This document shows, piece after piece, positions 9,474-15,809 of a stretch of DNA of 32,288 nt (position 1 is its first letter; each line of letters starts with the position of its first letter). The notes below the pieces were generated by a model, which worked only from the letters and a program-made list of their open reading frames with translations, was not told the DNA's origin and did not search any database. The position numbers and the translations under genes were made by a program. The stretch spans positions 1 to 32,288 of IMG/VR virus record IMGVR_UViG_3300031730_000018; one strand, written 5' to 3'. The stretch comes from a virus.

Positions 9474-9549
9474 CCTGCTGGCCGGCTCTGACTTCCCCCG
9501 GGGCCGGCCAGTTCCCACCGACCCGCCACAGCAGATCAGGAGACATCGG

Positions 9550-10431
9550 GTGAGCTACCAGGCCGTGCAATGGGCCCTCGATGAGGCGCCCATGCTGCGG
9601 ATGCCCACATCGGGGAAGCCGGACACCACCGCTCGCGGCGTCCTCGTCGCCCGCGCCGAGCGCGCCGACGAACACGGCCGTGACTCCCACGCCGCCGTCG
9701 AGGACATCATCTGGCGCACTGGGTACGACGAGCGCACCATCCAGCGCGCTGAGGACCGCCTGGAGGCCGCGCGGCTCATCGTCCGCGACGGCGTCACCCG
9801 GTTCGGGACCATCCGCTGGAACCTCGACCTGACCCAGCGCCGCGACCCTGCCGAGCGGGACGAAATCGAGGCCGCGATCGTCCGCCGCAAGGCTGACAAC
9901 GCGACCCGGGAACGCACCCGCCGCAGCCGCCAGCGCAAGGAGCGTGCCGACTCTGCGTCCACACGTGGGGACGCAGAAAACACACGTGGGGATTCTCCGT
10001 CCACACGTGCCGACTCTGGCTCCACACGTGTGGACGCAGCGCCCCCCGAACCACCCAGGAACCGTCCGGGAACCTCCCGGGGAACCACCCAGGAACCTCC
10101 CTCTGGGGGCGCGCCGCCCCCAGACCCCCGGCGGCCCCCGTCGCCTTCGGCTCCGGGGAACGAACAGGCCAAGTCACTGTCCGAACCACTCACCCCAGCC
10201 CAAGACCAAGAGAGCGACCCACTACCGCACGCGCACGCGAGCGACACAGCCCCGCCGCTGCGCCTGGTCGCCGCCAACGACCAGCCGGCCACCGACGGCC
10301 CACCACGCGGCATCTTCCCCATCCCGGTCCCGGGCCCCCGGCTCAGCCGAGCCGAGGAAGCCATCGCCGCCGCCACCGCCCGCCGTGAGGCCGCCCGCCG
10401 CGCCCACCAGGCCGACAGGACCACCGGATGA
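9550..10431 (+). CDS. Replication-initiator-like HTH protein
   Basis: A 293-residue protein. Residues 1-95 have the winged-HTH pattern of phage replication initiators (TARGVLVARAERADEHG, then the helices VEDIIWRTGYDERTIQRAEDRL). The rest is low-complexity, Arg/Pro-rich and probably unstructured. It starts at GTG 9550, preceded by AGGAG. By analogy with lambda O and DnaD-like proteins it may recognise the phage origin and recruit replication proteins; this is inference. The gene contains two phased DNA repeat arrays (9949-10040 and 10048-10097), as expected if the origin lies inside it. The helicase and ERF genes are upstream neighbours. Confidence 0.75.
   Translation: MSYQAVQWALDEAPMLRMPTSGKPDTTARGVLVARAERADEHGRDSHAAVEDIIWRTGYDERTIQRAEDRLEAARLIVRDGVTRFGTIRWNLDLTQRRDPAERDEIEAAIVRRKADNATRERTRRSRQRKERADSASTRGDAENTRGDSPSTRADSGSTRVDAAPPEPPRNRPGTSRGTTQEPPSGGAPPPDPRRPPSPSAPGNEQAKSLSEPLTPAQDQESDPLPHAHASDTAPPLRLVAANDQPATDGPPRGIFPIPVPGPRLSRAEEAIAAATARREAARRAHQADRTTG
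9949..10040. repeat. Four 21-bp-spaced CACACGTG iterons
   Basis: CACACGTG occurs at 9960-9967, 9981-9988, 10002-10009 and 10023-10030, exactly 21 bp apart each time. Around the octamer the copies share a GA(C/T)TCT-x2-G(T/C)TC left flank in three of the four. In protein they read as a 7-residue STR repeat. The 21-bp step is two helical turns, so all four sites face the same side of the DNA, as replication iterons do. Confidence 0.7.
10048..10097. repeat. Five helically phased GAACC repeats
   Basis: GAACC begins at 10048, 10059, 10070, 10082 and 10093, with steps of 11, 11, 12 and 11 bp, about one helical turn each. GAACCACCCAGGAACC is present twice (10048-10063 and 10082-10097). It lies directly after the CACACGTG array in the same gene. 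It could be a second protein-binding array or simply codon repetition for a Pro/Arg-rich tail. Confidence 0.55.
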
Positions 10432-10703
10432 CCAGCCCCGGAACCGTCTACCTCCTCCACTTCGACCGCCCGTACAAGCACGCCCGCCACTACCTCGGCT
10501 GGGCCAGCCACCTCGACGCCCGCCTCGACCACCACGCCAACGGCACCGGCGCTCGCCTCACCGCAGTCGTCCGCGATGCCGGAATCAGCTGGACCGTCGC
10601 CCGGACCTGGACCGGCAGCCGCACCCGCGAACGCCAGATCAAGCGCCAAGGCGGCCTATCCCGCAGCTGCCCGATGTGCGGCGTGAAGCCGAGGACGACA
10701 TGA
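10428..10703 (+). CDS. GIY-YIG-like nuclease domain protein
   Basis: A 91-residue protein almost entirely composed of a GIY-YIG-type domain. It has VYLLHF for the GIY strand, HYLGWA for the YIG strand, LDARLDHH in the following helix, and ARTWTGSRTRERQIK with the expected catalytic-region Arg and basic residues. The end has CPMC, a probable metal pair. It is a common actinomycete family of unknown substrate and might cut DNA during phage replication or host takeover. Its ATG overlaps the previous stop (ATGA), as does the next start with its own stop. Confidence 0.82.
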   Translation: MTSPGTVYLLHFDRPYKHARHYLGWASHLDARLDHHANGTGARLTAVVRDAGISWTVARTWTGSRTRERQIKRQGGLSRSCPMCGVKPRTT

Positions 10704-10897
10704 CCGTCCACCTCACCGCCGGCGAGAAGCGCGCCCGATCCTCCGCCGCCGCTGCCGTCGCCCGCGCCCAGGCCCACACCCGCCCACCTGCCGCCCAGGA
10801 CGACGACACCACCCTCGGTGCGCTCTACCCCTACGTCACCCACGCCCGCGCCGCACAGATCCGCAGAGAGATCCAGGAGACCCGCCATGACCGATGA
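10700..10897 (+). CDS. Small helical early protein
   Basis: A 65-residue product from ATG 10700, which overlaps the stop of the GIY-YIG gene. It has an alanine-rich basic N-terminal half and a C-terminal helix (ARAAQIRREIQETRHDR). No motif or family is recognised. The same frame is open for about 750 bp upstream, but that part is the mirror of coding in another frame. Confidence 0.6.
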   Translation: MTVHLTAGEKRARSSAAAAVARAQAHTRPPAAQDDDTTLGALYPYVTHARAAQIRREIQETRHDR

Positions 10898-11912
10898 GGA
10901 TCCGAGCAACCAGGCAGCCAACATCGAGCAGGACGCCCGCGCCCTGCTCGACCGCGCCCGCGCCACCATCAGCGAACTCCGCGCCGACCTCGACCACGTA
11001 CAGGCGGACTCCGACCGTGACCTCCGCAACGCCCGACGGGCCTGGACCGAACGGGACCGCGCCGAAGCCCGAGCCGGCGCCTACCGCCTCGCCCACGACC
11101 ACCTAGCCGCCGTCACCCGCCAGCTGATCGACTCCGTCACAGTGCACGCCTACGGCCTCGACCAGGCCAACGCCGAACGCCTGCTGCCGGCTCTCGACAT
11201 CGTCCGCGACGCGCTCTCCCGCGACCTGGACAGCTACCTGGTCGACCCCGACGACATCACCCCAGACACCCGAATCGACCTCACGGACGCGGGCCACGCC
11301 GTAACCACCCAGGAGCGACTCTTCGACGGCATCCCCGAGCAGCTGCAGGACCTCACCACGAAGTGGACCCCACCCAGCCGTCCGGATTGGTGGACCCCCG
11401 ACCACGAGGCCGCAGCCCTAGCTGGCATCGCCGACCGCGTCGCCTCGGTTCCTCACGTCGCGCGCGAGGTGCCCCCGGCGTCCAGGGCGTGGACGCCGTT
11501 GCCGGAGAACTGGGGCCCGTATGAGACCGTGCTGCAGACGCGGTTGGAGCCGATGCCGTTGGCGGTCGGCGAACTCCACGACGCCGGCCTTGTGCGGTCC
11601 GGCGATCCGGAGCGGGTCGTGCGGAACATGGTGCTGACGCATCTGGTGGCCGCGGCCGAGGAGGCGCAGGTCGAGCTGGGCGCATACGACCGCCGGATCC
11701 TCGGGTGGCTGGCGCGCGGCGAGGAGTCCACCGCGCAGGTCGTGATTGGACTCGTTCGCCGCGCGTTTGAGGCCGGTCGGAGCGCCCAGCATTGCTACGA
11801 CACGCTTCGCAGTCAGGCCACTATGGAGCGTGACGATAACATAAGGGTCATTATGGTGTCATCCCAAAAGGGGCGTTTCGGGCAGCCAGATCTTCCCGGC
11901 GGCGACCGGTGA
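10887..11912 (+). CDS. Hypothetical early protein with coiled-coil N-terminus
   Basis: A 341-residue protein from ATG 10887, overlapping the previous gene by 11 bp. Residues about 12-75 are a long charged coiled coil (LLDRARATISELRADLDHV, then RARRAW-like heptads). The middle and C-terminal parts are helical with no catalytic motif I can name. Its last about 30 codons use rare ATA, TCA and CAA codons in a locally AT-rich stretch (about 11825-11880), unlike the rest. Function is unknown. Confidence 0.7.
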   Translation: MTDEDPSNQAANIEQDARALLDRARATISELRADLDHVQADSDRDLRNARRAWTERDRAEARAGAYRLAHDHLAAVTRQLIDSVTVHAYGLDQANAERLLPALDIVRDALSRDLDSYLVDPDDITPDTRIDLTDAGHAVTTQERLFDGIPEQLQDLTTKWTPPSRPDWWTPDHEAAALAGIADRVASVPHVAREVPPASRAWTPLPENWGPYETVLQTRLEPMPLAVGELHDAGLVRSGDPERVVRNMVLTHLVAAAEEAQVELGAYDRRILGWLARGEESTAQVVIGLVRRAFEAGRSAQHCYDTLRSQATMERDDNIRVIMVSSQKGRFGQPDLPGGDR

Positions 11913-13669: not shown

Positions 13670-14689
13670 GTGGCGGATCCGCTCTACTCAATAGGTGATA
13701 CGCGCGTGATCAAGTTCCTCGGTCGGCTGGCGAGACATCCTGCGGTGGGGGTCCCGCTGGCCATGTTGGCGGCGGCTGGCCTACTAGTCCTGCTGCTTGG
13801 GCCGGTTTCCTGGTGGGCCACGCCAGCCAAGCACCTGCAGGGCAAAGACAAGGCCGATGTCCGTAACGCCACACGGCAGATCGTTCTCGCCGCTGTAGGC
13901 GGCATGGTCCTTCTCACCGGTGCCGCGTTCACCGCACGAACCTTCTTCTTGACGCGTCGTGGACAGTTCACCGACCGCTACACAAAGGCAATCGGCCAGA
14001 TCGCGTCGGACAAACTCACCGAACGCCTCGGCGGCATCTACGCACTCGAACACCTGATGATCGAGTCCGAACGCGACCACAACACTGTAGTAGAGGTTCT
14101 CGCGGCGTTTATTCGCGAGAACGCCGAGTCAAACTCGGTCCACGGCGGGCCACCGACTCCTTCGACAGACATCCAGGCCGCTTTGACAGTGCTGGGTCGA
14201 CGCCCGGATCGTCCTGAGGCGAACTACCTAGACCTGCGCAACGCTGACCTCCGCGGCGCAAACCTGCAGGACGCCAGACTTGAAGGGGCAATCCTCAGAA
14301 GGGCCCAACTTCAGGATGCTGACATGACACTCGCCAGGTTGCAACATTCTGATATGAGACACGCTCAGCTACAGAAAGCCCGAATGGGGTACGCGGTGCT
14401 GCGGCGTGCGGATTTGACGCACGCCAACCTGGACGGTGCAATCCTGAGCAATACCTGGCTCCAAGGCACAAACTTGAACGAGACAAATGGGCTAGTGCTC
14501 GCTCAGCTGTCACAGTCATCAATCGACACACATACATATCTAGACCCGAGGCTTCTAGCGAAGCTGCGCGATGAGATATCCAGCGTTCACGACCTGGACG
14601 GCGTGGACCGCGTGCTCCTACGCAAAATCCGTGGGACACCACTGGATCGCCGTGATGAAGGGCCGCCGGAGTCAAGCTTGACTCCGTGA
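13670..14689 (+). CDS. Membrane-anchored pentapeptide-repeat protein 1
   Basis: A 339-residue protein with two transmembrane helices (about 26-48 and 70-93). Next comes a conserved juxtamembrane module (TDRYTKAIGQIASDKLTERLGGIYALEHLM and on to IQAALTVLGRRP, about 100-185). Nine or so pentapeptide repeats of the A(D/N)LxxA type (about 190-265) follow. The repeats fold as a right-handed square helix that mimics DNA in some families or binds partners. The anchor-plus-module form is widespread in actinomycetes with no settled role. GTG 13670 follows GAGGG. It sits between early and late regions with a paralogue next to it, as cargo genes do. Its repeats are more degenerate than those of the second copy. 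Confidence 0.85.
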   Translation: MADPLYSIGDTRVIKFLGRLARHPAVGVPLAMLAAAGLLVLLLGPVSWWATPAKHLQGKDKADVRNATRQIVLAAVGGMVLLTGAAFTARTFFLTRRGQFTDRYTKAIGQIASDKLTERLGGIYALEHLMIESERDHNTVVEVLAAFIRENAESNSVHGGPPTPSTDIQAALTVLGRRPDRPEANYLDLRNADLRGANLQDARLEGAILRRAQLQDADMTLARLQHSDMRHAQLQKARMGYAVLRRADLTHANLDGAILSNTWLQGTNLNETNGLVLAQLSQSSIDTHTYLDPRLLAKLRDEISSVHDLDGVDRVLLRKIRGTPLDRRDEGPPESSLTP

Positions 14690-14855: not shown

Positions 14856-15809
14856 ATGTCGAGTATCCGGAATCGCTACCGGGCCGCCCGTGCCGCATGG
14901 ACCACCGCCGGACACCCGCCAGCTCGGCCCCGGCCCGCAAGATCAGACTCCCGTGGCAGCCGGCGGCTACGCCCTCGCGCGAAGGCATCGGCTCCCGACC
15001 GGTGGCAGCGCGGCACCGCCATCGGCGGTTTTGTCTCGGTGCTGCTCGTCGCGGTCGGGCTGGTCCTGACGAACGACTTCAACCGGGACCAGTACCGCCT
15101 TCAGCAGGACAGCAATGAGGAGCAGCAGGAACTCACGCTGAACGGGCAGCGGGCCGACCGGTTCGTCAAGGCAATCGACCAGCTCGGCCAGGAAGGCAAC
15201 GACAAGCTGGGCATCCGGCTCGGCGGCATCTACGCCCTGGAAACGCTCATGCGCGATTCCAACAGCGATGAGAACACTATCATCGAGGTGTTGTGCGCGT
15301 TCATACGCACCCACGCAATCGATCCGGATATCCCCTTCACCCGCAAGGCGGTTCCCGTATCCCCGCTTGATGTCCGCGCCGCCCTGACTGTCCTCGGCCG
15401 TCGGCGCGAACCAGACCATCACACACGACTCGACCTCAGCAACACCCTGCTCGGTCTCGACCGTATAGACCTAAAAGGCGCGAATCTGCACGACGCGCAA
15501 CTGGTCGACGCAGACCTTCGCGGTGCCACGCTGGTCAACGCGGACCTGAGCGACACCACCCTGTCCAGCGCGGACCTGCGCGGCGCGGACCTGACCGACG
15601 CGGACCTGACCAACGCAGTACTTTTCCAAGCGGACCTGCGCGGCGCGCAACTGACCGGCGCGCACTTGAACGGCGCGAATCTGACCAGCGCGTACCTGCA
15701 TGATGCAGACCTGAGGTGTACAACGATGGATCGCTTAACGAAGTTGCCACTAGGGGTAGCGCGCTCAGACCCAGAGACCCTTAAAAGCCCGGAGTGCCAG
15801 CAGCCGTAG
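14856..15809 (+). CDS. Membrane-anchored pentapeptide-repeat protein 2
   Basis: A 317-residue paralogue of the gene before it. A basic N-terminus and one transmembrane helix (about 54-72) lead into the same juxtamembrane module (ADRFVKAIDQLG, LGIRLGGIYALETLM, VRAALTVLGRRR). Some 13 regular pentapeptide repeats follow (about 193-290; for example ADLRGADLTDADLTNA). It has one helix where the neighbour has two. ATG 14856 has a weak ribosome site, so the start is less sure. It is followed by a strong terminator. A duplicated origin for the two genes is supported by their shared 3' flank. Likely a lysogenic-conversion gene; the function is unknown. Confidence 0.85.
   Translation: MSSIRNRYRAARAAWTTAGHPPARPRPARSDSRGSRRLRPRAKASAPDRWQRGTAIGGFVSVLLVAVGLVLTNDFNRDQYRLQQDSNEEQQELTLNGQRADRFVKAIDQLGQEGNDKLGIRLGGIYALETLMRDSNSDENTIIEVLCAFIRTHAIDPDIPFTRKAVPVSPLDVRAALTVLGRRREPDHHTRLDLSNTLLGLDRIDLKGANLHDAQLVDADLRGATLVNADLSDTTLSSADLRGADLTDADLTNAVLFQADLRGAQLTGAHLNGANLTSAYLHDADLRCTTMDRLTKLPLGVARSDPETLKSPECQQP

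Follow-up and report, generated by a model that had tools for sequence, protein, structure and literature searches.

The initiator gene and its repeats

The window, the whole stretch of DNA analysed here, is an IMG/VR virus record of 32,288 nt that carries the gene set of a temperate phage: repressor, integrase, ERF recombinase, helicase, initiator, terminase, portal, major head, major tail and tape measure. The ERF recombinase and helicase genes lie directly upstream of the initiator gene and provide a replication-module context. A profile search matched the plus-strand ORF at 9550-10431 to PHROG_1032, 'replication initiation protein', and the match was significant (E 3.6e-8), which placed the protein in this family. 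The match to HTH_36 was weak and fell below the cut-off, and the O-like PHROGs 391 and 678 also matched weakly (E about 0.08). No gene for a lambda-P-like loader or DnaB was identified adjoining the initiator gene. A small ORF at 10428-10703, with a weak GIY-YIG match (E 0.024), overlaps the initiator stop and occupies the place that the helicase-loader gene P has in lambda.

The initiator was modelled with AlphaFold2 on a nine-sequence alignment. The pLDDT was about 93 over the winged HTH (wHTH) domain and under 50 over most of the linker, and a Foldseek search of the model against the PDB returned mostly wHTH regulators, with no match at E below 0.001. The repeat arrays lie in the DNA that encodes the linker, and the residues encoded by the arrays and the hairpin fall mostly within this predicted disordered part. 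The features of the locus are as follows, with the strand given where one is assigned.

9550-10431, plus strand: replication initiator gene, GTG start, 293 aa (PHROG_1032 match; AlphaFold2 model)
Initiator residues: winged HTH, about 1-95; long basic helix, 100-137; disordered linker, 140-260; then a C-terminal helix (AlphaFold2)
9958-9971: iteron 1, TCCACACGTGGGGA (exact octamer positions)
9979-9992: iteron 2, AACACACGTGGGGA (exact octamer positions)
10000-10013: iteron 3, TCCACACGTGCCGA (exact octamer positions)
10021-10034: iteron 4, TCCACACGTGTGGA, a perfect palindrome (exact octamer positions)
10048-10097, plus strand: GAACC array, five copies (spacing, synonymous recoding, recurrence in O-like initiator genes)
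10102-10124: hairpin 1, TCTGGGGGCG-CGC-CGCCCCCAGA (conserved 3' of different iteron sets; the loop-closing pair covaries)
10136-10158: possible hairpin 2, CCCCG..CGGGG, weak (sequence varies between relatives; predicted in many)
10145-10205: candidate unwinding region (local A+T peak and high synonymous conservation; putative function)

The octamer CACACGTG occurs on the plus strand at 9960, 9981, 10002 and 10023, in steps of exactly 21 bp. The window holds seven matches to it against 1.6 expected, and five of the seven lie in the array, including a reverse-strand copy in iteron 4. The copies are embedded in the 14-mers of iterons 1 to 4, in which 6, 4, 5 and 7 of the 7 pairs, respectively, are palindromic. 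GAACC follows at 10048, 10059, 10070, 10082 and 10093, in steps of 11, 11, 12 and 11 bp, and GAACC-N6-GAACC was found three times in the window against 0.06 expected. Both arrays lie inside the initiator ORF, with the iterons about 400 bp into the gene, and the 3'-ward order is iterons, GAACC array and hairpin. An earlier note on this DNA had described the four octamers at 21 bp, the five GAACC copies with these spacings and their location within an initiator-like gene, and all three were borne out by the positions and the PHROG_1032 match.

Palindrome exchange and a shared hairpin

We compared the locus with orthologues from Micromonospora andamanensis (L004), an IMG/VR contig (L003) and genomes of the same family (L009-L011, and the more distant L012); a phage contig (L023) encodes the same initiator protein as L011. 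TCCACACGTGTGGA-type iterons are present in the window and in L004, and TCCGTACGTACGGA-type iterons in L003, L009, L010 and L011, with 21-bp spacing in both classes. As the change is symmetric about the ACGT centre, the palindrome is preserved in the swap, and the peptide over the iterons changes from STRxD to SVRTD. According to the earlier note, an origin would be contradicted by relatives in which the STR peptide is kept and the octamer altered through synonymous codons; the opposite was seen, since the palindrome was swapped whole and the peptide changed too. The wHTH domains of the two classes are 72-82% identical and are separated by six residues (H42F, S46T, R79P, V82T, F85W and I88P), four of which are at positions 79-88, in or beside the wing.

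We also observed further copies of the initiator, beside an intact one, in the same Micromonosporaceae genome as L009 (L019-L022). One extra copy has frame-breaking stops, yet its iterons and most of the downstream array are kept. Two initiator remnants without the wHTH part (L013 and L057) retain two iterons, the GAACC array and the hairpin.

Hairpin 1, which follows the GAACC array directly on its 3' side, has the general form CTGGGGGC-R-CGC-Y-GCCCCCAG. An IMG/VR scan with GGGGGCRCGCYGCCCCC returned 53 stretches, and the hairpin stood behind palindromic arrays at 16 loci in addition to L003, the L011/L023 phage among them, most of these arrays being of other sequence. The iteron classes ahead of it include GGTGAGCGC, GTGACGTCAC, GTAACGCC, TCCGTTAC, GTCCGGGAC, CCGTCAGAC and GTGACGCC, and the initiators upstream of the common hairpin have diverged or unrelated N-terminal domains. 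As the iterons and the wHTH domain vary between relatives while the downstream DNA is kept, the putative origin is modular. Together with the palindrome swap, the common hairpin suggests natural exchange of the initiator-specificity module against a shared downstream part. About ten palindromic iteron sequences precede the same hairpin (L060, L061, L066, L043, L042, L024, L027, L037, L039, L045, L065, L070, L073 and L014), and these sets form a natural collection of initiator/iteron specificity pairs.

The R-Y pair of the hairpin was complementary in 17 of 17 origin matches and mismatched in 20 of the 36 others (Fisher p = 4e-5); the G5C/GC5 part of the stem, which the search pattern had prescribed, is uninformative. 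In the origin matches this loop-closing pair alternates between A-T and G-C with no mismatch, pair counting agrees, and the pair is kept through two amino-acid changes, since the encoded alternatives are T-L and A-P. With a covariance model, strong matches were confined almost entirely to the initiator loci of the host family; across 396 genomes of the phylum they were rare outside these loci, and in one further genome (L077) the hairpin lies beside other repeats. Named phages gave no near-match to the hairpin block, and plasmids two weak, chance-like ones. Rfam returned nothing above the gathering thresholds in the window, and the sub-threshold matches in relatives (miRNA, sRNA and others, two of them on the L003 palindrome array) were taken as chance. 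We also considered the hairpin as a companion of all GAACC sites, which was unsupported (35 initiator-embedded versus 68 other sites, p = 0.10); what we propose for the hairpin is therefore confined to the actinophages.

The prediction of a second hairpin is plausible but weak, with z below -2 in 4 of 24 sequences only and the window itself not favoured over shuffles. The A+T content of 10145-10205 is 38-40% in the window and up to 47% in relatives, versus a gene average of 27-30%. This modest peak sits 40-100 bp past the hairpin start, and no strong A+T-rich unwinding element was found at the putative origin.

Hairpin 1 might instead act in the mRNA, as a terminator, antiterminator or stability element that merely neighbours an origin. 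Put-type antiterminators consist of two successive hairpins, which the present pair resembles, and a strong stem with a covarying pair would suit such a role. However, there is no T-run, the window has no Rfam match above the gathering score, and hairpin 1 follows iteron-like arrays in the origin matches, where the covariation fits single-stranded DNA and RNA equally well. We regard an mRNA role as unlikely.

Selection on the arrays and the origin reading

The palindromes could also be operators that the initiator uses to repress its own operon or to control copy number, with the true origin elsewhere. Rep proteins commonly autoregulate, and iterons often double as control sites. The palindromes of the window, however, lie about 400 bp inside the gene and not at a promoter, and in relatives the conserved GAACC array, the hairpin and the A+T peak come next, so that we consider operators alone to be quite improbable. 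Host DnaA boxes are a still poorer account of the iterons. TCCACA, the core of the high-G+C DnaA box, is contained in the window iterons, but it is absent from the TCCGTACGTACGGA orthologues and from most other iteron classes, and the window sites are palindromic and 21-bp phased whereas DnaA boxes are asymmetric; this identity is very improbable.

The same peptide segment was recoded synonymously 20,000 times with the window's own codon usage. None of the 20,000 recodings reached the observed count of four octamers, and none reached the four phased GAACC steps. The octamer needs the codons ACA (4.8% of Thr) and CGT (6.9% of Arg), which are both rare and are used in four of four copies. As the 11-bp step of GAACC runs through all three reading frames, no peptide repeat accounts for it. 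The earlier note had proposed a comparison of codon and DNA conservation in relatives, and among the orthologues synonymous conservation indeed peaked over the arrays: synonymous codon identity was mostly 0.85-0.95 over about 10006-10230, where amino-acid identity was just 0.45-0.83, and mostly 0.6-0.85 over the remaining initiator gene. We read this synonymous-site peak with low amino-acid identity as the signature of an overlapping DNA element and, judging from the sequence, both arrays as selected at the level of DNA and not of peptide. It is hardly credible that the repeats only reflect a linker peptide of low complexity, rich in proline (STRxD heptads and EPP motifs), and have no DNA role: each 21-bp unit does encode a heptad in frame, and the linker is predicted to be disordered, but this account agrees neither with the rare codons and the recodings, nor with GAACC spanning three frames, nor with palindromes exchanged symmetrically while the peptide changes, nor with synonymous conservation that is highest at the arrays.

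The region is thus very probably the iteron origin from which a temperate actinophage replicates, lying within the stretch of the phage's initiator gene that encodes the linker. A phage of a soil actinomycete appears to keep the DNA of its replication switch inside the gene for the protein that throws the switch. The earlier note had called the site a good candidate phage origin, a reading supported by the whole-palindrome replacement at 21 bp, the peptide change and the synonymous-conservation peak. The arrays, their selection as DNA, the palindrome swap between orthologues, the order of iterons, GAACC array and hairpin, and the recurrence of GAACC are all seen in the sequence; we infer binding, duplex opening, helicase loading and a replication start, the first two from the example of lambda (PMC7466680). 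The wHTH domain would bind the four 21-bp-spaced palindromes as dimers, two turns apart on one helix face, and these dimers would form an O-some-like nucleoprotein complex. The complex would then act on the adjacent GAACC array, phased at one helical turn, which would be a second recognition module for a conserved partner: a helicase-loading factor or a further surface of the initiator itself. The duplex would open at or just past the hairpin, in the relatively A+T-rich 10145-10205, and the helicase would be loaded at the opened stretch.

GAACC arrays in other phages and comparison with known origins

IMG/VR was scanned for GAACC-N6-GAACC-N6-GAACC (11 bp) and, as a control, for the GAACC-N7 form (12 bp), which gave at least 112 and at least 118 distinct sites, respectively. 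Among the matches listed, an 8-mer was present at least four times within 150 bp upstream at 41 of the 11-bp sites versus 12 of the 12-bp sites, and the site-spanning ORF matched phrog_270, a replication-initiation PHROG, in 43 of 71 versus 9 of 62 cases. Sites inside an O-like initiator numbered 41 of 112 versus 8 of 118 among the matches listed, by a family HMM that was seeded partly with GAACC matches; the PHROG tests are independent of this HMM. All 41 listed initiator-embedded 11-bp sites lie on the coding strand, none being antisense, and 37 of the 41 have iterons within 150 bp upstream. The consensus over 123 units was GAACC[G/A]T[C/A]ANN, and units of high-G+C actinophages tend to GAACC..CC.

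Among named phages, the O-like initiators of TurkishDelight (Streptomyces) and DatBoi (Gordonia), both distant homologues, and of Abidatro, MD8, CUB19 and PHB09 resemble the window in that an AACC array at 10-12 bp follows iterons within the gene, but they differ in iteron sequence and have no match to the hairpin block. At least two phased AACC units 3' of in-gene repeats were found in phages of Stenotrophomonas, Pseudomonas, Bordetella, Vibrio, Aggregatibacter, Arthrobacter, Streptomyces and Gordonia, with just two units in the Vibrio, Aggregatibacter and (at exact spacing) Bordetella phages. The array was absent from the initiators checked in three mycobacteriophages (two of one cluster), Klebsiella and Escherichia (LLS) phages, one Acinetobacter phage and one cyanophage, and from lambda O; it is therefore common but not universal. 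The window belongs to a grouping that we propose here, GAACC-array phage origins, whose members have, on the coding strand of an initiator gene, GAACC repeats at 11 (10-12) bp that directly follow iterons on their 3' side.

The earlier note had taken the two arrays together as the origin. The origin reading stood, and the roles of the arrays were refined: the palindromes are probably initiator-specific iterons that vary between relatives, and GAACC a second module, conserved among phages whose iterons are unrelated. Tentatively, and with slightly less than even confidence, we propose that GAACC repeats at 11 bp form a module of tailed-phage origins that has not been described before, conserved in sequence and independent of the variable iterons. 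A conserved factor (an initiator surface, a helicase loader or a host protein) would read this module and so set where the strands open or the helicase is loaded, both in actinobacterial and in proteobacterial phages. Such a conserved element raises the question of which protein reads the GAACC array. The basic helix after the wHTH domain was considered and not adopted as this reader, because it is not visibly shared by initiators of the proteobacterial type.

In lambda, the origin lies mid-gene in O and has four direct, imperfect inverted-repeat iterons about 20 bp apart (PMC7466680; lambda O gene), and the initiator is dimeric in lambda and Stx phages (PMC7466680). In the window, too, the coding region of the cognate initiator contains the iterons, and these are four direct, helically phased inverted repeats at 21 bp with 4-7 of 7 pairs, as in the relatives. 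In contrast to oriλ, they adjoin a GAACC array of about 70% G+C and a hairpin instead of a classical A+T-rich tract, the array is not shared by lambda O, no P-type loader was recognised adjoining the initiator, and its match to O-like PHROGs 391 and 678 is weak. In position, iteron form and spacing the putative origin of the window is functionally like oriλ; because it adjoins no A+T-rich tract and its O-like match has an E of about 0.08, it is not filed as a member of the oriλ family.

In extrachromosomal mycobacteriophage prophages, a RepA-type HTH initiator is necessary and sufficient for replication, and the origin is presumed to lie within or next to repA, with no repeats reported in the regions those authors examined (PMC7157519). 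The window is similar in its HTH initiator and in the probable place of the origin but differs in its repeats, and the three mycobacteriophage initiators checked here, from other phages, are those without GAACC. Intragenic iteron origins are already known, while the GAACC module and the covarying hairpin are new as far as the open-access literature searched shows; no paper there names either, which is weak evidence. Most tailed-phage origins, and actinophage origins in particular, are unmapped, and the combination described here, an HTH initiator gene that contains iterons with an 11-bp GAACC array behind them, may serve as a sequence rule able to predict such origins.

Two further observations were made in the window. 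Strand asymmetry is strong around the initiator gene: the GC skew of the window is strongest over 9501-11500 (about -0.19 to -0.27), where the AT skew is about +0.3. The neighbouring ORFs at 13670-14689 and 14856-15809 both match PHROGs 7713, 923, 31265, 15350 and 12514, of unknown function, and are tandem paralogues.
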